Shown here piece by piece: positions 1 to 10,166 of a DNA stretch of 43,402 bases. This DNA is from Deltaproteobacteria bacterium (GTDB taxonomy: Bacteria > Desulfobacterota > Binatia > UTPRO1). Each line of letters begins with the position of its first letter. The first letter of the stretch is position 1. A program made the position numbers and the translations under genes. The stretch is from the NCBI GenBank assembly GCA_029262315.1, contig JAJCZP010000227.1, positions 1 to 43,402 on the forward strand, written 5' to 3'. The notes under the pieces are model-generated. The model had not been told where the DNA came from and did not search any database. It was given only the letters and a program-made list of their open reading frames with translations.

Positions 1-798
1 GGCGGCTTTGCGTTGCTCCAAGTGGAGCGTTCGAAGGACTTCCACCAGCCGTTGCGAGAGGTCCACCCGTCGCGTCTTACCGCTCTTCGGACTGGTGAGC
101 TGTCCCCGTGAGTGTGCCTGATGGACCGTTGCAAAGCGGCCATTGAAATCGACAGCCGACCACTCCAAGGCCGTCGCTTCACCCAGACGCATCCCCGTTC
201 GCGCCAGCAGGAATACGAAAGGATGCCAGCGCGGGAAGTGTTCGGTGCAGGTTCCCAGGAGCAGCGCGAGTTCGTCTGCCGTCAAGAAGTCGGCAGCCTG
301 CTTTGAACCATCCTCGACTCGACTGCGCTTCAGGACGTTCGCGGCGGGGTTGCTCACCACATGGCCATCCTCGATGGCGTGATTGAACATCTCCCGTAGC
401 GGAGCCAGCGTTGCTCGCACTGTGCTTCGGCTGAGTTTCTTCTCCGTCATTGTCGCGACGATCTGCTTCGTGTCCTGACGGCTGATCTCTCGCAGATCCC
501 GGTTGCCGAGATACGGTTCCAAGTGTCTCCGAAACGCGACCTCATAGCTGACATACGTCGACTCCTTGCAGTGCGTTCGTACGTAGCTGTCGAGCCATGC
601 GCGATAGTAGTTGTCGAAAGGACGAGGTTCGGGCTTGCCGAGATTGAACTTCCCAAGGGCAAGCTGCTCCCTGATTCCTTTAGCCACCCGCTCTGCCGTA
701 GCTTTGTCCGCGACGTTGACAGACTTCCTCCCCTTCTTGTGGTCGATCACAACCCACCAACCAGGCTTTCCTTTTCGTTGCCTTACTTTGACCGCCAT
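1..798 (-). CDS. int: Tyrosine recombinase/integrase, C-terminus cut by window edge
   Basis: The frame is open from an ATG at 798 down to base 1, giving 266 residues of a phage-type integrase. A purine-rich site (AAAGGAGA) precedes the ATG. The N-terminus (MAVKVRQRKGKPGWWVV) resembles the arm-binding domain. A core-binding SAM-like segment follows at about residues 67-160 (TYVSYEVAFRRHLEPYLG). The catalytic domain then starts, with the first catalytic Arg in ARTGMRLGEATALEW at about residue 200. The H-x-x-R box and the Tyr nucleophile would lie to the left of the window. Its job is site-specific integration and excision of the element, which fits the tRNA-derived attachment site at 10555-10596. 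Identification as a tyrosine recombinase is secure; the subfamily is not. Confidence 0.93.
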   Translation of the reverse strand, partial: MAVKVRQRKGKPGWWVVIDHKKGRKSVNVADKATAERVAKGIREQLALGKFNLGKPEPRPFDNYYRAWLDSYVRTHCKESTYVSYEVAFRRHLEPYLGNRDLREISRQDTKQIVATMTEKKLSRSTVRATLAPLREMFNHAIEDGHVVSNPAANVLKRSRVEDGSKQAADFLTADELALLLGTCTEHFPRWHPFVFLLARTGMRLGEATALEWSAVDFNGRFATVHQAHSRGQLTSPKSGKTRRVDLSQRLVEVLRTLHLEQRKAA

Positions 799-818
799 GC
801 GGTCTCCTTTCTCCTGCT

Positions 819-1022
819 CTATGTGAGCAGGTCGACCAGTTTCAGCCCCACCGCACGCGCTACCCGTTCGAGCACCGCGAGCGAGGGCGCCTTTCGTTCC
901 CCCGCTTCCAGCTTCAGCACGTAGATCCGAGAGATGCCCGCTTTGCGAGCGAGCGCCTCCTGCGTGAGGCCGCGCGCTAAACGCGCCTCTCGAATGCGTC
1001 TGCCGATCGAGCGAGGGGGCAT
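819..1022 (-). CDS. Xre/Cro-family transcriptional regulator
   Basis: This 67-residue protein is almost entirely one HTH_3 domain. The helix-turn-helix is visible as GLTQEALARKAGISRIYVLK, followed by LEAGERKAPSLAVLERVARAVGLKLVDLL. It sits 20 bp upstream of the integrase gene on the same strand and is probably co-transcribed with it. The start codon has no Shine-Dalgarno sequence. Instead it lies at the edge of a perfect 8-bp-arm palindrome (1021-1041). This suggests a leaderless or autorepressed transcript, with the repressor controlling itself and the recombinase, as in temperate elements. The specific target is inference. Confidence 0.85.
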   Translation of the reverse strand: MPPRSIGRRIREARLARGLTQEALARKAGISRIYVLKLEAGERKAPSLAVLERVARAVGLKLVDLLT

Positions 1023-1041
1023 GCATACTTCTAGTATGCAT
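1021..1041. promoter_or_regulatory. Palindromic operator overlapping the Xre start codon
   Basis: Two perfect 8-bp arms, ATGCATAC and GTATGCAT, flank a 5-base centre (TTCTA). The start codon of the Xre gene occupies 1020-1022, at the edge of the palindrome. A symmetric site here is best explained as the autoregulatory operator of the small Xre protein. It lies between the Xre-integrase unit and the upstream HTH gene at 1054-1362. Confidence 0.6.
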
Positions 1042-1053
1042 CCACCTGCGAAC

Positions 1054-1362
1054 TCAAGCGGACAAGCCCTCCATCACCTTACTCACCGCGCGTTGCACGT
1101 CCGCATCCCCCTCGCAGCGATAGGCCTGCATCCACGCATCGAACTCCGAGCGCTTCACCAGTACGCGCCCGTTCGGTCGGTAGCAGCCAAGCGGGCGAAC
1201 GGGATCGCTCAGAAACCCGCGCAGCGTGCGCTCCGACAGACCGCTGTACCGTGCGAGTTCGCGCAGCGAGAGGTAGCGATCGCCATCAGAGGCGAGCTGC
1301 TCGTGCACGGGCGTATGTTCGCGAGGAGCGCTCACGTCAGCCGTCGAGGGCGGCTCCTCCAT
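1054..1362 (-). CDS. Excisionase-like helix-turn-helix protein
   Basis: This is a 102-residue protein whose centre (DRYLSLRELARYSGLSERTLRGFL, then VLVKRSEFDAWMQAYR) is the MerR/excisionase HTH_17 pattern: one HTH helix pair followed by a wing ending in an Arg-rich 'F-x-x-W' helix. The N-terminal 28 residues are charged and probably disordered. Its place just upstream of the Xre and integrase genes on the same strand suggests a recombination directionality factor (Xis) or element regulator. Similar HTH_17 proteins also act as plain regulators, so the excisionase role is inferred from context. Confidence 0.7.
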   Translation of the reverse strand: MEEPPSTADVSAPREHTPVHEQLASDGDRYLSLRELARYSGLSERTLRGFLSDPVRPLGCYRPNGRVLVKRSEFDAWMQAYRCEGDADVQRAVSKVMEGLSA

Positions 1363-1527
1363 TTACTGAGTTCATCCGGGTGCACGCGCGCCGGACACTC
1401 TGAGGCGTGTTTGCGCACCCGCGTTCGAGAACCCTTGCGATGCTGCACGATTCGAGGCCGTGCTTCACCTTCCTAGTCGAATGCTTACGCCGCCAAGCAA
1501 CGATTCGTACTGAACGCTCGTGTACCC

Positions 1528-1872
1528 TCACGTTTGCACCGTTCGGCGCTCGCCAAGATGCTCCGTGTGCGCTCCCAGGAGCGTACAGCGCAGCCCGTCT
1601 GCGAATCGGAACGTCTCCTCGTCGTACGCGTCTGCGAGTAGGCGATTGAGTTCGCGGTTCAGCATGGGCGCGCACTCCGTGCAGAGAGCAGGTAGCTCCG
1701 CTGCACGGCGATCTGCCCGTACACCCCGTCTTCGGCGCTGCTCCTCCTCGACGGCAATCTGGACTTCGAGCCCGCCGACCTCCTCTTTCTTCAACCAGCG
1801 CAGGTACGATGCTGGGACCGCGCTGATCTTCCAGCCTTGGTGCTTCCCGAAGGGCATCCGCATCGTGCTCAT
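1528..1872 (-). CDS. DUF3820-like protein
   Basis: A 114-residue protein. Its N-terminus, MPFGKHQGWKISAVPASYLRW followed by LKKEEV, matches the short signature of DUF3820 (M-P-F-G-K-x-x-G ... P-x-x-Y-L-x-W), found alone and next to nuclease or ATPase genes in phages and elements. The rest contains an Arg/Glu-rich helix and a C-x2-C pair (LCTEC). The ATG overlaps the stop of the RepA-like ATPase gene by 4 bp (ATGA), so the two are translationally coupled and probably act in the same replication or processing step. Molecular function is unknown. Confidence 0.65.
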   Translation of the reverse strand: MSTMRMPFGKHQGWKISAVPASYLRWLKKEEVGGLEVQIAVEEEQRRRRGVRADRRAAELPALCTECAPMLNRELNRLLADAYDEETFRFADGLRCTLLGAHTEHLGERRTVQT

Positions 1873-3017
1873 CGCACTTCCTCCATTTGCTTCCCTCCAC
1901 CCTCACAGCCACCACCGTCACCCTTAAGGGGGGTGACGGTTGGAGGCGGTGAACTTGGGTCACAGTCATTGCCGTCACTGACGGTGTCATGGCGGTCCTG
2001 GCGGTCACCAGCCTGCACAACAGCGCGATAGCGAGCGCCTTTGCCGTCTCCGTCCTTCTCGACGAGGCCGAGTTCGAGTAGCTCGTTTCTGGCTCGGCGC
2101 AGCGTGCTTTCGCTCTCGCCCAGCAGTTCCAGCCACTCCGTGAACGTTGCTCCCTCCGCGTCCTGCTCTCGGAGCGCGACGAGCGCCTTCTCGGCGCGTT
2201 TGCTGGGCCGCTGCGCCGTCGATACGTCGTCACCATCCGCCGCGACCAGCACGCACGAGCTGCGCTCCCCGCTCACTGTGACCGCCTCCAAGCGGAGGTG
2301 AATGGGCTCGAAGTTCGGCAGGTCGCGCTGTTTCGGATTAGTCAGCGTCACCATCCCTTTCTTCTGTGTCAGCGCCAGCTCCGTGTCCGCCGTCGCCTTC
2401 AACGCGGAGCTGCCACGCGCTCGCCCGCGCCCTTTCACGCCTTCGTGGTGGATCACAAGCACAGCAGCCTTCAGATCCGTTGCGAGCTGCCGAAACGCGC
2501 CCGCCGCGCGCCCCGCATCCTTCGCCTTGTCCTCATCACCGCCACCCGCTGCGAGCGACGCTGACCATGTGTCCACGACGATCAACGCGGGCTCCAGCTC
2601 CATCTCCGCGATCTGCTTTCCGAGCGCGGCGATCTCGTTTGCGACGAGCGGATCGAGCGCGCGAGGCAGGAAGTACACGCCGAGCTTCTCTGCCTTCCCG
2701 TGATGCTGCTTCCACGCCTCGACCCGCGTGGCGAGCCCGCCTTGCCCCTCTGCCGCGATGTACACGACTGGGCCTTGCTTGACCTTACAGCCCTGCCAGG
2801 GCGCGCCGCTCGCGATCGAGAGGCTCATGTCGAGCGCGAGGAACGTCTTTCCCTTGCCTGACTCCGCGTGCAGCAGGATGAACGCATCCTCCGTGCAGAC
2901 GCCCTTGATGAGGTGCGGCTGCTCCGTCCGCTCCTGCATGATCTGCTCGTCATCGAGCAGTTTGAATGGCATGTGCGGTTGCTGCACGGCGCGCGCGTCG
3001 CCTAGCGAAGCCTGCAT
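1869..3017 (-). CDS. RepA-like AAA ATPase / replicative helicase
   Basis: From the ATG at 3017 this encodes 382 residues. I chose this start because it overlaps the TGA of the upstream HTH gene (TGATG). The open frame extends further upstream but that part looks like non-coding readthrough. The Walker A motif is AESGKGKT (51-58) and Walker B is ALIVVDTW (about 144-151). A conserved VLVIHHEGVKGRGRARGSS segment (187-205) is typical of RSF1010 RepA/AAA_25 hexameric ATPases. A winged-helix-like tail at about 285-345 (TLRRARNELLELGLVEKDG) probably binds DNA. The last 40 residues are low-complexity Asp/Gly/Pro. The likely role is unwinding at the element's replication origin. Confidence 0.85.
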   Translation of the reverse strand: MQASLGDARAVQQPHMPFKLLDDEQIMQERTEQPHLIKGVCTEDAFILLHAESGKGKTFLALDMSLSIASGAPWQGCKVKQGPVVYIAAEGQGGLATRVEAWKQHHGKAEKLGVYFLPRALDPLVANEIAALGKQIAEMELEPALIVVDTWSASLAAGGGDEDKAKDAGRAAGAFRQLATDLKAAVLVIHHEGVKGRGRARGSSALKATADTELALTQKKGMVTLTNPKQRDLPNFEPIHLRLEAVTVSGERSSCVLVAADGDDVSTAQRPSKRAEKALVALREQDAEGATFTEWLELLGESESTLRRARNELLELGLVEKDGDGKGARYRAVVQAGDRQDRHDTVSDGNDCDPSSPPPTVTPLKGDGGGCEGGGKQMEEVR

Positions 3018-3235
3018 CAGTCTGCTCCGCCTTCTGAGTTGCCCTCCGCATCGTTGGCGTGCTCGGCCTCGTTGGATGGGAAGAGCAGGGCGCGCAGTCG
3101 CGCCATGTCCTTCTCGCTGTAGCGCCGTTGGCCCGCCCAATCGCGCATCGGCTCGATGTGTCCGCGCCGCTCCAAGTTGCGGAGCGTATCCGCGTGGCAG
3201 CCGAGTTCGTGTGCTGCTTCTGTGATTCGTCGCAT
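3017..3235 (-). CDS. MerR-like HTH DNA-binding protein
   Basis: A 72-residue protein starting with a MerR-type HTH: RRITEAAHELGCHADTLRNLERRGHIEP, then RDWAGQRRYSEKDMARLRAL. It lacks the long dimerisation helix and effector domain of full MerR regulators and ends in an acidic tail. Its stop overlaps the start of the RepA-like ATPase gene by one base, so it heads the three-gene operon HTH-ATPase-DUF3820. Small HTH proteins of this kind in mobile elements often act as origin-binding or regulatory partners of the helicase; that role is inference. Confidence 0.75.
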   Translation of the reverse strand: MRRITEAAHELGCHADTLRNLERRGHIEPMRDWAGQRRYSEKDMARLRALLFPSNEAEHANDAEGNSEGGAD

Positions 3236-3354
3236 AGCTAGTCCTTTCGTGGGGAATCGTTCCCCGCTGTCGAAAGAATACGACGGAATGGACGTGCGTT
3301 CCTCCCCGAATGGCCTGCAGGCGCGTAGGAAAGCGCGCCCTTCGTGGGAGGAGG

Positions 3355-4344
3355 TTACCTACGCGCGCGACGGTCTGCGGCCCGGTAGGCGTCGTGCACG
3401 GCGCGCTCGATCGTGCGCACGAGCTGCGGCAGCTTCTTCTCGACATCGTTAGCGCGCTGGCGCAGCTTCTGCGGGTCGTTCCTGAAGTAGCGGGGCGAAT
3501 CGCTCACCGAGGCTGCTGCGTCGAGCACGTTCGCAAGCCGCCTGTACGGGGCGTACACGCCGCGCGCGCGGAGCAGCGCTGCGAGGAAGGCGACGAGGCA
3601 GTTCAGCTTGTCCTCCGGTGGGCGCCCCGTTCGCCGCAGCGTACGCGCGGCATGCTCCATCCGCCCGTGCATCAAGCGCAGTTCGCTCGCGAGATGTTGC
3701 AGCTGCGCTTGCATGGCGATCTCGCGCGGCCATCTGATCGCGTCAAGCTGCTTCTCGACCCTCTCGTACAACTCGACTTCATACGCTGGCGGCTCGTCTG
3801 GGTACGACTCCGTGCGTACCGCTTCGAAGTCGGCGTTTGCGAGGGCGTCGTGCGCCAGCGGCGCGTTTCCGATGCCGCCCTGCTGATCGACGAGGCGCGC
3901 GATGCGCTGGAACTCCCCGATCGTCGCTACCGCCTGCTCCATCGGCTTCAGCCGCTTCGCCCACTGTCGCTCGCTGCGCGCGAGCAGCGCATGCACGGGG
4001 TTGCGCTCGTCGATGTGCCAGTTCCAGGCGTAGCGTACGAGCGCGGCAGCGATGACGTTCGGGCTGACGCCCGCCGTCGCGAGTCTCTCCAACTCAGCGC
4101 GCGCATGTTGAAAGAAGCTGCGGCACTTCTGTTCGAACGACGTGGATGGCTCGCGTAGCCTTCTGGCTGCTGCCGCAGCGGCACTTCCTGCACGCGGCTT
4201 CCGATCGAGCAGGCGCTTCGCCTCCTGCGACCAGTACGCCTCCGGTTGCCGCAGCGCGCTGCGTGCGGGCAGGCGATCACGCGGTAGCAGGTATTCCCGC
4301 TCCAACAGCGTTGCCGGATCAAACGTCTGCACCACGCTCCCCAC
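3355..4344 (-). CDS. Hypothetical protein, 329 residues
   Basis: I do not recognise this family. The protein is mostly alpha-helical and rich in Arg and Ala. It has no signal peptide or membrane segment. Helical stretches such as SFEQKCRSFFQHARAELERL and RVEKQLDAIRWPREIAMQAQ could form coiled coils. The C-terminus is strongly basic (RAVHDAYRAADRRARR), which would suit nucleic-acid binding. It is read in the same direction as the downstream HTH-ATPase-DUF3820 genes, 119 bp before them, and diverges from the HNH gene at 4465. Upstream start codons are absent near 4344, so the start is reasonable. An accessory replication or cargo role is possible but unsupported. Confidence 0.65.
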   Translation of the reverse strand: MGSVVQTFDPATLLEREYLLPRDRLPARSALRQPEAYWSQEAKRLLDRKPRAGSAAAAAARRLREPSTSFEQKCRSFFQHARAELERLATAGVSPNVIAAALVRYAWNWHIDERNPVHALLARSERQWAKRLKPMEQAVATIGEFQRIARLVDQQGGIGNAPLAHDALANADFEAVRTESYPDEPPAYEVELYERVEKQLDAIRWPREIAMQAQLQHLASELRLMHGRMEHAARTLRRTGRPPEDKLNCLVAFLAALLRARGVYAPYRRLANVLDAAASVSDSPRYFRNDPQKLRQRANDVEKKLPQLVRTIERAVHDAYRAADRRARR

Positions 4345-4464: not shown

Positions 4465-5157
4465 ATGGTTGCGACCAAGCCGCAGCGCGTGCCCGTCGAG
4501 TGCTACCTCTGCGGACGACCGATCACGCGCGACGCTACCGATCCGCGCTTCCTGCGCACGCGAGATCACGTGCCGCCGCAGGGCTTCATCCCGAAGCCCC
4601 GCCCGGCCAACCTCATAACGCTACCGTGCTGTCGTGCGTGTCAGGACGAGTACCAGCGCGACGAAGACGAGTTCCGTAACAACCTGGGCGCACTTGCGCC
4701 CGCCAGCGTGAACGCAGCTGCTCGCGTGACCTGGGAGACGGCGAAGCGAGCTTTCAAGCGCGGGCCAGGCGTCACGAAGGACTTCGTCTCACGGCTCCAG
4801 CGAGTAGCCGTGCCTCGTGCGGACGGCAGCACCGAAGACCGGCTCGCCTTAGCGTTCGATGCCGCGCAGACGAGGCGGGTCATTCACAAAGTCGGCTGTG
4901 GGTTGCTCTACCACCACTTGCGGCAGCGCCCGCGTGCGGACCAGCCGCTGGAAGTCGAGTGGGACACGCATCTCGACGCGGCTGAGTATCAGCCGATGAT
5001 CGACGCTTCGCACTATCGCGACTCGTTCGGACGAGCGTTTGCCTACGTCGGCCTCGTAGTGGCAGGCTCGCGCGACTCGATCTGGCTCATGTGGTTCTTC
5101 GAGCATCATATGGCATCGGTCGCCTTCTTGGATGCGGTGCCTACGTGCGACAGCTAG
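4465..5157 (+). CDS. HNH-endonuclease-like protein
   Basis: A 230-residue protein whose N-terminal 70 residues have the zinc-bound HNH layout: CYLCG (13-17), TRDHVPPQGF with the DH pair at about 33-34, and LPCCRACQDEYQRDEDEFR with a second Cys pair and the closing Asn/His-like region. The remaining 160 residues have no familiar domain; they include a helical part and a C-terminal beta-rich stretch (FAYVGLVVAGSRDSIWLMWFF). GAGG precedes the ATG. It diverges from the gene at 3355-4344 and is followed after 62 bp by a membrane-protein gene. DNA cleavage is likely from the family, but the final HNH His/Asn is not obvious and the target is unknown. Confidence 0.65.
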   Translation: MVATKPQRVPVECYLCGRPITRDATDPRFLRTRDHVPPQGFIPKPRPANLITLPCCRACQDEYQRDEDEFRNNLGALAPASVNAAARVTWETAKRAFKRGPGVTKDFVSRLQRVAVPRADGSTEDRLALAFDAAQTRRVIHKVGCGLLYHHLRQRPRADQPLEVEWDTHLDAAEYQPMIDASHYRDSFGRAFAYVGLVVAGSRDSIWLMWFFEHHMASVAFLDAVPTCDS

Positions 5158-5219: not shown

Positions 5220-5936
5220 GTGAGTTCCGCTGAAATCGAGCGGCGCCAGGTCATCAACGAGTTGCACCGCCTCGTGGCGCAGGTGCGCAAGGATATGGCG
5301 CTGCTTGCGGGCAATCCCCCTGTCTCCAAGTTTCAGGTAGCCGCCAACCAGAGCATCGAGAACCATCGCATGTACTTCAATGCGAATCGGCATTGGCTCC
5401 CACTGGACCTGTGCGCAGAGTTGCAGCAGCTGAGCGGATTTTTTCATGATGCTTTCGTCGATTTCACGATTCAAGGCCATGAAGGTCGTGGCGAGGCCAT
5501 CTTGCGAGCGTGGCATCTCTTGAACGAAGATGCGACGGAGCTGCAGCAGCAGATCGAGAAGGGCTTCCGAGAGCTGTTGGCCACGAACGTGTCAGCTGGG
5601 GCACCGAAGAGAGGTCACGAGTCAGTCTGGAAGTTCTTATTCGGGGGTCTGGGAGCTGGAGTTGTTGTTTTGGGTCTCGGCTATCTGCTGAATGGGTGGG
5701 ATCCTCTAGGCCTGTTCGCGGATCGCGGCAAAGCTCTCGATCTAGACCGATATTGTACGGTGGTGTTGGGTGGAGTTGACGCCGACCATGATGGAAGCCG
5801 TTGGCAGTGCGAAATGGAAGATGAAACGCGCCGAGATTTCGACGCTGAGAAAGTCTGCGCATGGCAGTTCAACGGGGCGCGACCTCGCGCGGAGCGGATC
5901 AACGATTCTCCTCACGGGTGGCGATGCTTCGAGTGA
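5220..5936 (+). CDS. Single-pass membrane protein with C-terminal cysteine domain
   Basis: Read from a GTG, this gives 238 residues. Residues 1-125 are helical and soluble. Residues 137-158 (KFLFGGLGAGVVVLGLGYLL) form one membrane span. Residues 170-238 form a small domain with four Cys (179, 197, 213, 236), probably two disulfides outside the cytoplasm. Its last part (VCAWQFNGARPRAERINDSP then HGWRC) resembles the short 'ACRWQY ... DPYSWRC' motif of many actinobacterial surface proteins. It lies 62 bp after the HNH gene on the same strand and may be co-expressed. The architecture would suit linking an outer signal to a cytoplasmic domain, but function is unknown. Confidence 0.6.
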   Translation: MSSAEIERRQVINELHRLVAQVRKDMALLAGNPPVSKFQVAANQSIENHRMYFNANRHWLPLDLCAELQQLSGFFHDAFVDFTIQGHEGRGEAILRAWHLLNEDATELQQQIEKGFRELLATNVSAGAPKRGHESVWKFLFGGLGAGVVVLGLGYLLNGWDPLGLFADRGKALDLDRYCTVVLGGVDADHDGSRWQCEMEDETRRDFDAEKVCAWQFNGARPRAERINDSPHGWRCFE

Positions 5937-6017
5937 GGGTGGAAGTTCCTCAGGACGACGTTGAGCGAGAACTTCGGGTCGCTGAACCGGGCCGGAGCCC
6001 CGATAGCGAAGTAGCGA

Positions 6018-6045
6018 GAGAGTTCAGGGCAGGACCCTGGCAGCG
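6018..6045 (+). repeat. Short copy of an inverted repeat (arm 1)
   Basis: The sequence GAGAGTTCAGGGCA, then GGA, then CCCTGGCAGCG is matched on the opposite strand at 6203-6253. The outer 14 and 11 bases are identical; this copy lacks 23 central bases. The stop codon of the possible small gene at 6024-6161 lies inside it. Confidence 0.6.
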
Positions 6046-6161
6046 GAAAGCAGCGCAATCTTGAGACCCAACGGTTCGTGAACCGCCAGACCCCATCCAA
6101 AGGCCAACCAACCGACAAGCACCAGGGCAGCTTGGAAACAAGCGTACACGTTTCGCTTCAT
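6024..6161 (-). CDS. Possible 45-residue membrane peptide
   Basis: An ATG at 6161 is preceded at ideal distance by a strong ribosome binding site (AAGGGAGG, then ACTGCC). The frame runs 45 codons to a TGA at 6024. The product starts MKRNVYACFQ, has one hydrophobic span (about residues 11-28, AALVLVGWLAFGWGLAV) and a short amphipathic tail. It lies 171 bp downstream of the zinc-ribbon membrane protein on the same strand, so it may be the last gene of that operon. Its final codons are formed by the repeat at 6018-6045, which could mean the repeat inserted into the gene end. The ribosome site and hydrophobicity support it; no homolog is recognised. Confidence 0.45.
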   Translation of the reverse strand: MKRNVYACFQAALVLVGWLAFGWGLAVHEPLGLKIALLSAARVLP

Positions 6162-6178
6162 GGCAGTCCTCCCTTTCT

Positions 6179-6253
6179 CCCGCGAAGGCGGGGTTCCAGA
6201 ATCGCTGCCAGGGCGTCCCTGCCACGCACGAGTGCGTCGTGCCCTGAACTCTC
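6179..6253. repeat. Cluster of hairpins with inverted-repeat arm 2
   Basis: Three hairpins follow each other: CCCGC-GAAG-GCGGG (6179-6192, REP-like), CAGGG-CGT-CCCTG (6209-6221) and ACGCAC-GA-GTGCGT (6224-6237). Bases 6203-6253, read on the minus strand, carry the same outer 14 and 11 bases as the copy at 6018-6045. This looks like a palindromic intergenic mobile repeat present in full-length and internally deleted forms. Confidence 0.55.
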
Positions 6254-6332
6254 TCCCTGCCCTCTCGTAGCAGAGTGTTAAGCGGGTGGCTAGTAGGATT
6301 GGGCGAGGACTGCGACCTGCGAAGGTATACCG

Positions 6333-7040
6333 CTATGAGTGCTTGTCCGGTTTGATTGGCTCGTTGCACTTGTCGATCTCGGCTAGCTCGATTGCGACAG
6401 CCAGCGGGGGTGGGGTTGGCTCGCTGCGAGGGGCGGCGGCATACAGTCCACTGACCTCGAAGCAGGAGCACCATGTTTCGCGATTGGCGACTCCGTGGGT
6501 TCCGTACAAGGCGACGGTGCACCGGAATCCTCGTCTGGCGCGAGTCTCGCTATCCAACTCGAAGACGTTGAGAGCATGCTTCTCTTTGTTCGGCTTCTTC
6601 GTCTCGTGGCGTACAGGTCGCAAGTCGCCGGGAGGGATCGAGACGAAATCGGGTATGACGATGGTCGTGATGGGAATGTCAGGGAGCAGTTTCGGAAACA
6701 CCTTCAAGTGCGACAGTGATACGCTCTTGTGGCCACTGTTCTCTACCGACAACGTCACGCTCTCTGGTACCCAGTTGAGAATTCTAAACTCGATCTCGGG
6801 TTGCCCAGCCCATTCCCCCCACCACGTGAACACGCTCGGCAGTAGTACGATGATGGCGAGGGCAACTCCCGCGAAAGCCTCAAGGTGCGGCAGGGCCGCG
6901 CGCAGGCGGTTCTGATACGTGCCGCAACCTTGGCAGAGGATCGCTTCGGCTGGGATCGTGTGACGACAGGCCCGGCATGATCGCTCAGGGGGCGTTGTCT
7001 TGCTCGGCGCTGCATCTAGAGGGCCGCTCTCCGTAGGCAT
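6333..7040 (-). CDS. Zinc-ribbon single-pass membrane protein
   Basis: A 235-residue protein with an N-terminal zinc ribbon (SCRACRHTIPAEAILCQGCG, Cys at 22, 25, 36 and 39) and one membrane span at about residues 54-74 (EAFAGVALAIIVLLPSVFTW). A 150-residue beta-rich domain follows, expected outside the cytoplasm (EFRILNWVPESVTLSVENSG, VIPDFVSIPPGDLRPVRHE). That part resembles an immunoglobulin-like or substrate-binding fold but I cannot name it. It starts 53 bp after the lipoprotein gene on the same strand and is probably in its operon. A ribbon inside plus sensor-like domain outside is common in membrane-anchored accessory proteins; the role here is unknown. Confidence 0.65.
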   Translation of the reverse strand: MPTESGPLDAAPSKTTPPERSCRACRHTIPAEAILCQGCGTYQNRLRAALPHLEAFAGVALAIIVLLPSVFTWWGEWAGQPEIEFRILNWVPESVTLSVENSGHKSVSLSHLKVFPKLLPDIPITTIVIPDFVSIPPGDLRPVRHETKKPNKEKHALNVFELDSETRARRGFRCTVALYGTHGVANRETWCSCFEVSGLYAAAPRSEPTPPPLAVAIELAEIDKCNEPIKPDKHS

Positions 7041-7093
7041 TCGTCAGTCGTGTCTAGCAGCCACACCAACCGTGTCGCAAAGGCAGTTCGCGC

Positions 7094-7549
7094 CTAGCCG
7101 AACCACTTCACCTTGAGCCACACGTACCACGGCACGTAGCCTGTTTCGCTCCGCACGGGCACTTCGAGGCCGCCAGCCGCAGCAAGCACCTTGTACTCGC
7201 CGTACCAGCCGCGTCGCATCGCTTGAATCGAGATGCCGCCATCCCTGGCGCTCACACGGCGGCACTCCCAGTTCTGCGCGTTCTGCACGGTGCATTCCCG
7301 CTTAGCGCAGTACTGCTCCGACTCGCCGCATTTCGCGAGTGAACGCAGCGCGGCGTGCTTGCCGCTCTCGAAGACCTCCTGCCGCTCGACGACCGCAGTG
7401 TAGGTACGGGGCTCGTACGCTTCCTGCTTGCCAGCTGGCGCAATGCTGACCGGATAGACGAGCACGCTGCGGCTGTCGCATGCGGCTAACGTAGCTGCTG
7501 CGAGGAGCAGGGCGAGGAGATTTCCCCGAATGAAGTGATTGTCCCCCAT
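7094..7549 (-). CDS. Small lipoprotein
   Basis: From the ATG at 7549 this is 151 residues. The signal sequence FIRGNLLALLLAAATLAAC ends in a lipobox with Cys at residue 24. The mature part has a beta-rich start (SRSVLVYPVSIAPAGKQEAY) and four Cys in KCGESEQYCAKRECT and NWECRR, probably disulfide-bonded. An in-frame ATG at 7558 is an alternative start; both lie within the operator at 7541-7556, so repressor binding would block expression. It is the first gene of the minus-strand cassette with the zinc-ribbon protein and diverges from the second Xre gene. No known family is recognised. Confidence 0.65.
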   Translation of the reverse strand: MGDNHFIRGNLLALLLAAATLAACDSRSVLVYPVSIAPAGKQEAYEPRTYTAVVERQEVFESGKHAALRSLAKCGESEQYCAKRECTVQNAQNWECRRVSARDGGISIQAMRRGWYGEYKVLAAAGGLEVPVRSETGYVPWYVWLKVKWFG

Positions 7550-7586
7550 GTGGGACATAGCTTGCGCGAAGATCCCACAAGTGGGA
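7541..7586. promoter_or_regulatory. Two operator palindromes between divergent Xre and lipoprotein genes
   Basis: Site 1 (7541-7556) is GTCCCCCATGTGGGAC, symmetric except for one base pair. Site 2 (7573-7586) is TCCCACAAGTGGGA, with perfect 6-bp arms. They share the consensus TCCCAC-N2-GTGGGA. Their centres are 31 bp apart, close to three helical turns, so dimers bound to both would face the same side of DNA. Site 1 covers the start codons of the lipoprotein and site 2 covers the GTG that could start the Xre gene. The adjacent Xre protein is the obvious ligand. Confidence 0.65.
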
Positions 7587-7784
7587 CAGCTCCGCAAGCG
7601 GCTAGCACTCTTCTTACGTGGGAAGCGCGGCGATCTGACCGAGCGCGAGTTCGCGCGGAAGGTGGGGCTGTCGAAGAGTACGCTCAGCCGCTTGGAAAAT
7701 CAGCAGCAGAACGCCACGATCCATACTCTTGAGCACCTCTGCAAAGTGTTTCGCTGCGAGGTCGGCGATCTGTTCCCACGCTGA
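7581..7784 (+). CDS. Xre-family transcriptional regulator
   Basis: Read from the GTG at 7581 this is 67 residues; an upstream in-frame ATG at 7548 would add 11. I prefer 7581 because the extension would be encoded by the two operators and does not look like protein. The HTH is DLTEREFARKVGLSKSTLSR followed by LENQQQNATIHTLEHLCKVFRCEVGDLF, the common Xre type that ends in a G-D/E-L-F motif. The gene diverges from the lipoprotein and zinc-ribbon genes, with operator palindromes over both starts. Autoregulation together with control of the envelope cassette is inferred. Confidence 0.75.
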   Translation: MGQLRKRLALFLRGKRGDLTEREFARKVGLSKSTLSRLENQQQNATIHTLEHLCKVFRCEVGDLFPR

Positions 7785-7810
7785 CGTTGGTGCGCAGCCC
7801 GCCACGCGTC

Positions 7811-7906
7811 CTATTCGTCGCAGGCGGTCTTCTCGATGGTCGGGTAGACTTGCCCGTACTCGGCATTCAGCAGGTCTGCGATTCGCGTTCTCGCTAGTTC
7901 TCTCAT
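7811..7906 (-). CDS. Possible 31-residue peptide coupled to Ycf48-like gene
   Basis: An ATG at 7906 overlaps the TGA of the Ycf48-like gene at 7903 (ATGA) and opens a 31-codon frame to a TAG at 7811. The product is MRELARTRIADLLNAEYGQV, then YPTIEKTACDE. It looks like a normal soluble helix but has no known homolog. The same A/G-TGA-A/G-AGAA junction recurs after the second copy and the third, broken copy, where the frames differ. It may therefore be just the shared 3' flank of the repeat unit, or a remnant of a larger gene. Confidence 0.25.
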   Translation of the reverse strand: MRELARTRIADLLNAEYGQVYPTIEKTACDE

Positions 7907-9003
7907 GGTACGATCGCGACACTTCGGAGTTCAGGCGTGTCGGGCGGGAAGGTTGCAAGCACCCACTCTTCCCCACCGTTGCTAGTGGTGTACGCGAGCG
8001 CAACCTCTGCCCCTGCCGCATCCGTGGTCGAGCCTACGGCGACGCCATTGTCCGCATCCGCGAACTGTACGTCGGTGAACATCGCGCGCGCGTCCCCCGG
8101 CACTTCCTGCGTTGCCCAGCTACCACCACCGTCGGTCGTGTGTAGGATCGCGGGGAAACCCGCCGCATCCTCTCCTACGACCCAGCCGAGCAGCTCGGTC
8201 GCGAACGCGATCCCATCCAAGTTCCCCGTGAACTCCAACGGTATGGTTGGCTGTGCAACCCATGTCACGCCACCGTCGATCGATCTGGAAAGGTCGGTGC
8301 GACCGCCCAGTGCCCAGAGTGTCGTCGCACCGACACAGGCAACCGCGTCCCCTCGGATACGGTCCCCGATGTCCTGCCAATCACTGTCCATTGCGCCGAG
8401 ATGGCAGAAGGGGGAAACGCCATTGAAGGTGTTAAAGTCGCGTCCACACGCGAACCCCAGGCCCGTGTCCGTGAGGCACAGTCGGCGTAGCTCCCCCCTA
8501 CCCCCACGCCCGTCGGCCTGGAAGTCGATACGCGGTCGACGCCAAGTAGCGCCAGCGTCCGTCGTGAGGCGAACGTCCACCAGTCCGAATCCCCCCGCAA
8601 ACGGGTGGGGACGAACCATGCCGCCTACGATCACGGCACGCGAGGCACTCGGAGCCGAGACCGCGTAGACGCGCGTCACGTTAAAATCGACTCCGCTGCT
8701 TTGATCGACCCAGCTGTCGCCCCCATCGGTCGTGGCGAGAATCGTTTGCGGAGCTACCGCCCAGCCACTTGAACGGTCGGCGAAGGAGACACTCGTGAGT
8801 CCTTCCGCCGCTAGCACGACCTCCCAGGTGCGTCCTCCGTCATCTGAGCGTACGATCGTGTCGCCAGCGGCCCATGCTCGCGCCAACGGAATCGGCGTCG
8901 AAGTGGCCTGAGCGGGCTCCTCGGCACCACTGCCGCCACAGCCGAGAGCGGCAAGAGCAAGTATTGCTACGCTGATATAGGACTTGGACACCGAGCTACC
9001 CAC
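7903..9003 (-). CDS. Ycf48-like beta-propeller lipoprotein A
   Basis: A 366-residue protein from a GTG at 9003; a second GTG at 8991 is possible. The signal peptide ends at a lipobox (AILALAALGC) with Cys 22. A Thr/Pro/Ala linker follows. The rest is built of BNR/Ycf48-type blades with the signature 'S/T-x-D/N-G-G-x-x-W': SDDGGRTWEVV, TTDGGDSWVDQ, TTDAGATW, SIDGGVTWVAQ, TTDGGGSWATQ and TSNGGEEWVLA. Between them are 'F-x-D-x-x-x-GWAVG'-like strands. Ycf48 itself assists photosystem II assembly, but bacterial relatives of this size are mostly surface proteins of unknown function. It is a tandem paralog of the gene at 9045-10166, 41 bp downstream of it. Confidence 0.8.
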   Translation of the reverse strand: MGSSVSKSYISVAILALAALGCGGSGAEEPAQATSTPIPLARAWAAGDTIVRSDDGGRTWEVVLAAEGLTSVSFADRSSGWAVAPQTILATTDGGDSWVDQSSGVDFNVTRVYAVSAPSASRAVIVGGMVRPHPFAGGFGLVDVRLTTDAGATWRRPRIDFQADGRGGRGELRRLCLTDTGLGFACGRDFNTFNGVSPFCHLGAMDSDWQDIGDRIRGDAVACVGATTLWALGGRTDLSRSIDGGVTWVAQPTIPLEFTGNLDGIAFATELLGWVVGEDAAGFPAILHTTDGGGSWATQEVPGDARAMFTDVQFADADNGVAVGSTTDAAGAEVALAYTTSNGGEEWVLATFPPDTPELRSVAIVP

Positions 9004-9044: not shown

Positions 9045-10166
9045 TCATGGTGCGACCGCGAGACTCTCAAGCGGTGGGGTATCGAGCGGAAAGCTTGCGG
9101 CCTGCCAAACAGCCCCGCCGTCCGTGGTTGCGAAGCCGAGAGCTGTGGGCTCCCCGGCTTCGTTCACCTGCTCCCCGACGGCAACTCCGCGTAGGGGGTC
9201 GGCGAACTGAACCGCCATCAGGCTCCCGGTCGTGGTGTTCCCAGGAAGCACCTGCGCCACCCAGCTCGCGCCCCCATCGGTCGTACGAAGAACCGTCGGT
9301 CGCCCAGTATCGTCCCTGCCCACCAGCCAGCCGTGCATGCTTGTCGCGAATGCGACAGCCTCAAGGAAACCCTCAAACACAGCTCGCAGGGCGTTGCTCC
9401 GGTCCACCCATGTCACCCCTCCATCGATCGACTGACGAAGTCCACGAGGACCCAGGAGGGTCCACAGCGTCTCATCGCCGACGCATGCGACCGAGCCTCC
9501 GCGCACGCGGCCCGTAATATCGAACCAATTGCTCCCAGCGTCGTCGCTCAGCGCGCAAAGCACGGCCCCAAACGTAACACCACAGGCCAATCCGATACCT
9601 GCTTCCGTGAAGCACATCGTTCGCAACTCGCCCTTGTCCGTGCCGCTACCGGTGATCCGACCGGGCGGCCAGGTTGCTCCAGCGTCCGTCGTCACACGGA
9701 TGCTGACCGGTCCGAAGGAGCCTGCGAAGATCGGGGCGAAGCCTCCTACGATGACAGCGCGCGTCGTGCTGAGCGCCGTCACCGCATTGAGCGAGCGAAT
9801 GATGTTGATGTCCACGGCGCCGGTCTGATCGTCCCAAGTGTCGCCGCCATCGGTACTATGCAGGATGGTCTTCGAGGCCACGGCCCACCCGGTCGCGCGG
9901 TCGACGAACGCAACGCTGTTGAATCCTTCTCCGGCCGGTCGCACGACTTCCCAGTCGAGACCACCGTTGTTCGATCGCACAATGACGTCCCCAGCTGCCC
10001 ACGCACGCACGTCACCACCCGGACTCGGGCTCGGGGTTGCTGAGACGCTACTGGGCGTCGCCTGCGGTTCCTCACCATCATTTCGACCACTCCCGCTACC
10101 GCACCCAACGAGCGCGACGACAACCGTGACGGCAACGCCGTGCCTGACTTGGAGCGAATGGGTCAT
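9045..10166 (-). CDS. Ycf48-like beta-propeller lipoprotein B
   Basis: A 373-residue paralog of the preceding protein. It has a lipoprotein signal (GVAVTVVVALVGC), a Ser/Pro/Thr linker (TPSSVSATPSPSPGGD) and seven blade motifs: SNNGGLDWEVV, STDGGDTWDDQ, TTDAGATW, SDDAGSNWFDI, SIDGGVTWVDR, TTDGGASWVAQ and TTDGGAVWQAA. AGAAG precedes the ATG. The two copies share the RAWAAGD-IVRS start of the mature domain and the closing PLESLAVAP / ELRSVAIVP. They arose by duplication and have diverged strongly. A display or adhesion role on the outer membrane is possible; no partner is evident. Confidence 0.8.
   Translation of the reverse strand: MTHSLQVRHGVAVTVVVALVGCGSGSGRNDGEEPQATPSSVSATPSPSPGGDVRAWAAGDVIVRSNNGGLDWEVVRPAGEGFNSVAFVDRATGWAVASKTILHSTDGGDTWDDQTGAVDINIIRSLNAVTALSTTRAVIVGGFAPIFAGSFGPVSIRVTTDAGATWPPGRITGSGTDKGELRTMCFTEAGIGLACGVTFGAVLCALSDDAGSNWFDITGRVRGGSVACVGDETLWTLLGPRGLRQSIDGGVTWVDRSNALRAVFEGFLEAVAFATSMHGWLVGRDDTGRPTVLRTTDGGASWVAQVLPGNTTTGSLMAVQFADPLRGVAVGEQVNEAGEPTALGFATTDGGAVWQAASFPLDTPPLESLAVAP

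Follow-up and report, generated by a model that had tools for sequence, protein, structure and literature searches.

A small Xre-type regulator gene and its paired palindromes share one geometry across three mobile elements

A small Xre-type gene and a lipoprotein-like gene diverge from each other over a pair of similar palindromes, which raises the questions of whether these palindromes are operators, to which protein they belong, and whether they join the divergent genes into one regulated system. The window, i.e. the whole stretch of DNA that was analysed, is an entire contig of 43.4 kb (C227) from a genome of 5.92 Mb in 298 contigs, and the features around the palindromes are the following.

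7581–7784, plus strand: xre regulator gene, 67 aa, GTG start, with HTH_26 and HTH_3 matches above cut-off
7571–7588: putative operator 2, GATCCCACAAGTGGGACA, 6/9 pairs, over the xre start, centred 1.5 bp before it
7540–7557: putative operator 1, TGTCCCCCATGTGGGACA, 8/9 pairs, over the lipoprotein start, centred 32.5 bp before the xre start
7094–7558, minus strand: lipoprotein-like gene, 151–154 aa (start ATG 7549 or 7558), with a signal peptide and the lipobox LAAC, of no known family
6333–7040, minus strand: zinc-ribbon membrane protein gene, 235 aa, with a sub-threshold DZR match (E 0.013) and TM
6024–6161, minus strand: ORF for a 45-aa hydrophobic peptide, with a Shine-Dalgarno duplex of −11.3 kcal/mol, the best of those tested
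6013–6258: inverted repeat with arms at 6013–6035 and 6236–6258, single copy in the genome

Judged by its sequence, the 67-aa product is an Xre protein with a predicted Cro/C1-type HTH, scoring 43.3 bits against PF13443 (cut-off 22; HTH_26, E 4e-11) and 40.9 bits against PF01381 (cut-off 23; HTH_3, E 2e-10), and its GC3 of 0.75 is coding-like. The start was fixed at GTG 7581 by alignment with homologues from the Vibrio plasmid p123, whose ATG aligns at this position, and from genome G096. The longer forms starting at ATG 7548 or TTG 7539 are less likely; the initial annotation had called the gene correctly but had begun it at TTG 7539 (81 aa), which the homologue alignment suggests is probably 14 codons too many. 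A clear Shine-Dalgarno sequence is missing at all three Xre starts (duplexes of −1.0, +1.7, and −0.4 kcal/mol), and the xre transcript is therefore probably leaderless.

Both start regions are covered by the palindromes. GTG 7581 lies inside operator 2, and operator 1 overlaps the lipoprotein start at either ATG 7549 or 7558, although the operator core itself includes ATG and this overlap might partly be coincidence. Direct reading of the lipoprotein frame revealed no ATG, GTG, or TTG from 7549 to the signal peptide, so the gene would have to start in operator 1 or upstream of it. The two sites are 31 bp apart and have 14/18 letters in common. The positions and spacing of the phased palindromes were thus as first described, whereas the exact core ascribed to both was found only in operator 2 (7573–7586, TCCCACAAGTGGGA), with one mismatch in operator 1 (7542–7555, TCCCCCATGTGGGA).

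As a pair, these palindromes are far beyond chance. The window holds no excess of loose single sites (19 vs 22.8 expected), as would be anticipated if the palindromes were accidental or reflected structure in the transcript and were not operators, but the pair score of 28 at this locus was reached by 0/20,000 Markov 120-mers and the next best score in the window was 23, figures that do not amount to a clean P value, the score and its 30–33 bp range having been chosen after the loci were seen. The DNA upstream of 24 other Xre genes serves as a fairer control than the random 120-mers, and there the pair score was at most 22 with spacings of 20–45 bp permitted. With a pair also found at the same position but with a different sequence beside each of two homologues, an origin by chance or as transcript structure is scarcely credible. 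When sites with up to three mismatches were ranked genome-wide, the two palindromes came first and joint second of 19 (reversed control, 16). No further convincing operator site was found in the 5.9-Mb genome, and the Xre therefore looks like a local regulator.

Only two close homologues of the Xre were found, one in Vibrio tubiashii ATCC 19109 on p123 (62% identity) and one in G096, a genome of the same class as the source genome (47%). The p123 operators are TGTCGCGCATGTGCGACA and AGTCGCATATATGAGACA, 31 bp apart, and those of G096 are CTCTACACATGTGTAGAG and CTCTACACATATGAAACG, 32 bp apart. Since both homologues have a pair of their own at similar spacing, the paired operator is judged to belong to the Xre. 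In all three cases (3/3), the Xre start codon lies 32.5–33.5 bp downstream of the centre of the stronger palindrome and 1.5 bp downstream of that of the weaker one (8/9, 9/9, and 8/9 pairs for operator 1 vs 6/9, 5/9, and 7/9 for operator 2), and the regulators are 67–76 aa long. The operator arms vary between TGTCC, TGTCG, and CTCTA, with a CACATGTG-like core kept in the middle; constant position and spacing with altered sequence are the pattern expected of an operator that changes together with its protein. The expectation that the palindromes would be conserved upstream of homologues was therefore borne out in architecture (pairs at 31, 32, and 31 bp), the motif sequence being different. This conserved geometry is drawn from three homologues, one of which has a poor second site: in G096, only the left half of operator 2 is good, making it essentially a half-site and weakening the G096 case. 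Because the geometry recurs in homologues, the observation of the palindrome pair is nevertheless stronger than the sequence of the window alone could tell.

A profile built from the three Xre proteins returned no further homologue with paired sites among 395 genomes of the phylum and 148 of the class, the sole match in the phylum (G214) being without them, and weaker Xre matches likewise had no operator pair. The same search of 398 genomes of another phylum was empty, a result that had no positive control and shows little. The p123 homologue, which starts at ATG 6001 (L056 6001–6231; NZ_CP009357.1 53480–53707), is absent from the gene table of the plasmid.

The operator motif was also sought in viral contigs. 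The exact form TGTCCCACNNGTGGGACA occurred in 22 stretches and the degenerate form TGTCNCNCATGTGNGACA in 30, none of them lying within 600 bp of a related Xre. In two of these contigs (L050, 901–955, and L054, 191–245), perfect TGTCCCACNNGTGGGACA sites occur as a pair 37 bp apart; no related Xre is near, and another regulator may use the motif there. A further viral contig (L090) has three TGTCTCACATGTGAGACA sites at 963–1020 and 3003–3020, two of them 40 bp apart, also with no related Xre near.

The left end of the window carries the genes that place this locus on mobile DNA.

1–798, minus strand: tyrosine integrase gene, cut by the contig end, with Phage_integrase and Phage_int_SAM_3 domains, marking an integrative element
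819–1022: second Xre gene, at the left end of the window
1054–1362, minus strand: gene for an excisionase-like HTH_17 protein, an element gene
1869–3446, minus strand: gene for a RepA-like AAA_25 ATPase (AAA_25, E 2e-36; phage primase/helicase PHROGs), whose true start may be inside the ORF

An integrase, an Xis-like protein, and replication genes are clustered in one block at 1–3446, and the linkage to a mobile element proposed in the initial annotation is upheld by the truncated tyrosine integrase, the Xis-like HTH_17 protein, and the RepA-like AAA_25 protein found there. A QSregVF_b domain protein is encoded at 1528–1872 within the integrative element. The integrase and RepA genes keep this order in G001 and G002, which belong to the family of the source genome and carry other cargo, and the region 5220–7784 is likely to be part of the element. 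Synteny around a Rieske gene was followed in two more genomes (G003 and G004) to locate the right end, but no other window gene lay alongside and the boundary was not found. The G096 locus contains TraD/TrwB, RadC, DUF2958, and HigB genes, and p123 was typed as conjugative (MOBH/MPF_F) and carries KfrA. All three Xre genes sit with mobile-element genes, and the 62% identity between the Xre proteins of the source genome and the Vibrio plasmid points to horizontal transfer.

The Xre could also be an antitoxin, i.e. the DNA-binding half of a toxin–antitoxin pair, and it does have weak similarity to the HTH domains of the PezA and HipB antitoxins. This similarity is limited to the generic HTH and falls far below the family cut-offs, no toxin-like partner directly adjoins any of the homologues, and the HigB gene of G096 has its own adjacent HTH antitoxin-like gene, all of which make an antitoxin role very improbable.

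The arrangement of the Xre gene divergent from a lipoprotein gene was borne out, with coding-like GC3 for xre, lipoprotein, and zinc-ribbon ORFs alike (0.79 for the lipoprotein and 0.71 for the zinc-ribbon/TM ORF). The zinc-ribbon gene follows 53–54 bp behind the lipoprotein gene and the two are probably in one operon. Membership of the 45-aa ORF is doubtful because it lies inside the single-copy inverted repeat. In this repeat of ~245 nt, the arm in the 5′ UTR pairs with the 3′ end of the 45-aa ORF (RNA fold z −2.0), and the whole may represent either a small-peptide mRNA with paired ends, of the hok type, or a MITE-like relic. Further along the window, two tandem, related YCF48/BNR-repeat lipoprotein-like genes (7903–9003 and 9045–10166, both on the minus strand) apparently arose by duplication.

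It had been suggested that these envelope genes form an undescribed element-borne system for exclusion, defence, or signalling that is silenced by the Xre. Such a role is compatible with autorepression by the Xre and would add a function for the cargo: a surface system kept off until entry into an Xre-free cell, serving, for example, in exclusion of a second copy or of phage. The coding-like GC3 of the lipoprotein and membrane protein genes, the operator over the lipoprotein start, and the adjoining integrative element are in keeping with this suggestion. However, relatives of the lipoprotein were found in none of 145 genomes and in no viral contigs or plasmids, and those of the zinc-ribbon protein in none of 141 genomes. 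The lipoprotein had no match in Pfam (at 0.1), PHROG, NCBIfam, or PADLOC, and the zinc-ribbon protein had sub-threshold matches only, with none in PADLOC. AlphaFold models from single sequences were uninformative (pLDDT 37 for the lipoprotein and 34 for the zinc-ribbon protein). Nor do the three genes co-occur elsewhere as foreseen, other genes flanking the Xre homologues: in p123 the Xre gene has a KfrA-type plasmid gene on one side and a gene of unknown family on the other, with no divergent gene starting at operator 1, and in G096 the divergent gene encodes a secreted-looking protein of 514–521 aa with no Pfam match. Elements of this kind often carry orphan cargo genes, and no paper was found on an Xre/lipoprotein/exclusion element. 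The three envelope genes are not supported as one system, and with no positive evidence for exclusion, defence, or signalling the envelope-system reading is improbable. Assignment of the lipoprotein and zinc-ribbon protein to entry exclusion or defence by homology was rejected, neither having a match above threshold to known exclusion or defence proteins.

The reading preferred here, with a probability of roughly 0.68, is that the Xre is a local autorepressor acting on two operators which in this genome also cover a divergent cargo gene. A small Xre dimer, encoded beside the core of an integrative element, would bind two operators 31 bp apart, probably occupying operator 1, the better palindrome, first. 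A spacing of about three helical turns would then let a second dimer sit at operator 2 on the same face of the DNA, possibly with looping of the kind proposed for the restriction–modification (R-M) controller C.Csp231I. Occupancy of operator 2 would shut off the probably leaderless xre transcript, so that Xre would keep its own amount at a fixed level by negative autoregulation. Since operator 1 overlaps the start of the lipoprotein gene, this complex should also control the divergent lipoprotein/zinc-ribbon cargo, probably by repression, and cargo expression would begin once Xre is diluted out or missing, e.g. just after transfer; this step is drawn from geometry in one genome only. The tight silencing until a signal arrives that was first proposed goes further than the palindromes, the conserved part fitting plain autoregulation equally well.

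Alternatively, the Xre could be an activator–repressor switch like the C-proteins of R-M systems, in which Xre bound at operator 1 would activate the xre promoter (or that of the lipoprotein gene) and occupancy of operator 2 would then repress, giving a delayed burst of expression after entry. The strong distal and weak proximal sites, the likely leaderless start, the spacing of 31–33 bp, and the mobile setting all resemble C.Csp231I, and a sigma-70 promoter scan of 5900–7950 gave none recognisable, so that activation and repression are indistinguishable. Against such a switch, no R-M genes lie near any of the three Xre loci, and in the Vibrio plasmid a TATAAC seen by eye between the sites would place operator 1 over the −35/−10 region, repressing rather than activating. 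Activation is accordingly considered unlikely, and autorepression is retained.

The switch is ordinary in kind, and it is the conserved geometry that makes it moderately interesting. One regulator of 67–76 aa and one two-site layout recur on a Vibrio plasmid and on two mobile elements from a single bacterial class, while the DNA motif has changed, and the three loci form a small natural experiment in which Xre and operator change together under fixed spacing. It further suggests that mobile DNA carries timing switches of the controller type that are not tied to a restriction system. Interest would rise considerably if the orphan neighbours did prove to be surface exclusion genes.

Among known regulators, phage CI/Cro-type repressors (phrog_8 and phrog_3) have the same HTH fold as the window Xre and often repress divergent genes, but their profiles span 346–430 positions against 67 aa, and no lysis–lysogeny gene pair is present here. 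CylR2 of Enterococcus faecalis is nearly the same size (66 aa) and was matched over most of its length with weak similarity (E 0.0017). It acts jointly with the small membrane protein CylR1 and has one operator, and it is not known to have a phased pair. Similarity to C-proteins amounts to 18.7 bits (E 4e-4) for the PADLOC Control_protein model and to weak matches of the Xre profile to C.BclI (E 0.0098) and C.Esp1396I-like chains, other Xre families scoring higher. The known C-box (GACT/AGTC or CTAAG-N5-CTTAG) is absent, the sites having TGTCCC, TGTCGC, or CTCTAC arms, and no R or M gene was found adjoining any of the three Xre genes; an HNH-like ORF at 4465–5157 is sub-threshold (E 0.06). With no R-M genes, a different C-box, and similarity that appears to stay at the generic Xre level, the Xre is not classed as an R-M controller protein. 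The window Xre does share with C-proteins two palindromic operators upstream of its own gene. C.Kpn2I, an R-M controller, likewise has a site that overlaps the region where its own gene begins, limiting the C.Kpn2I transcript, although that site lies mostly inside the ORF and acts as an elongation roadblock (PMC6237814). C.Csp231I binds two 15-bp sites separated by an 18-bp spacer, 33 bp centre to centre, with spacer length but not spacer sequence being critical and looping proposed, and the EcoO109I controller has a 25-bp spacer (PMC4321490); the mRNA of the C.Csp231I C gene is leaderless (PMC4824078). Regulators of the C.Csp231I and EcoO109I type are, like the window Xre, small Xre-type dimers with two well-separated palindromes upstream of their own gene, but they are found with R-M genes and have a different operator sequence. 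C.Csp231I is by analogy the closest worked-out parallel, and the window Xre may work like an R-M controller despite not being classed as one.
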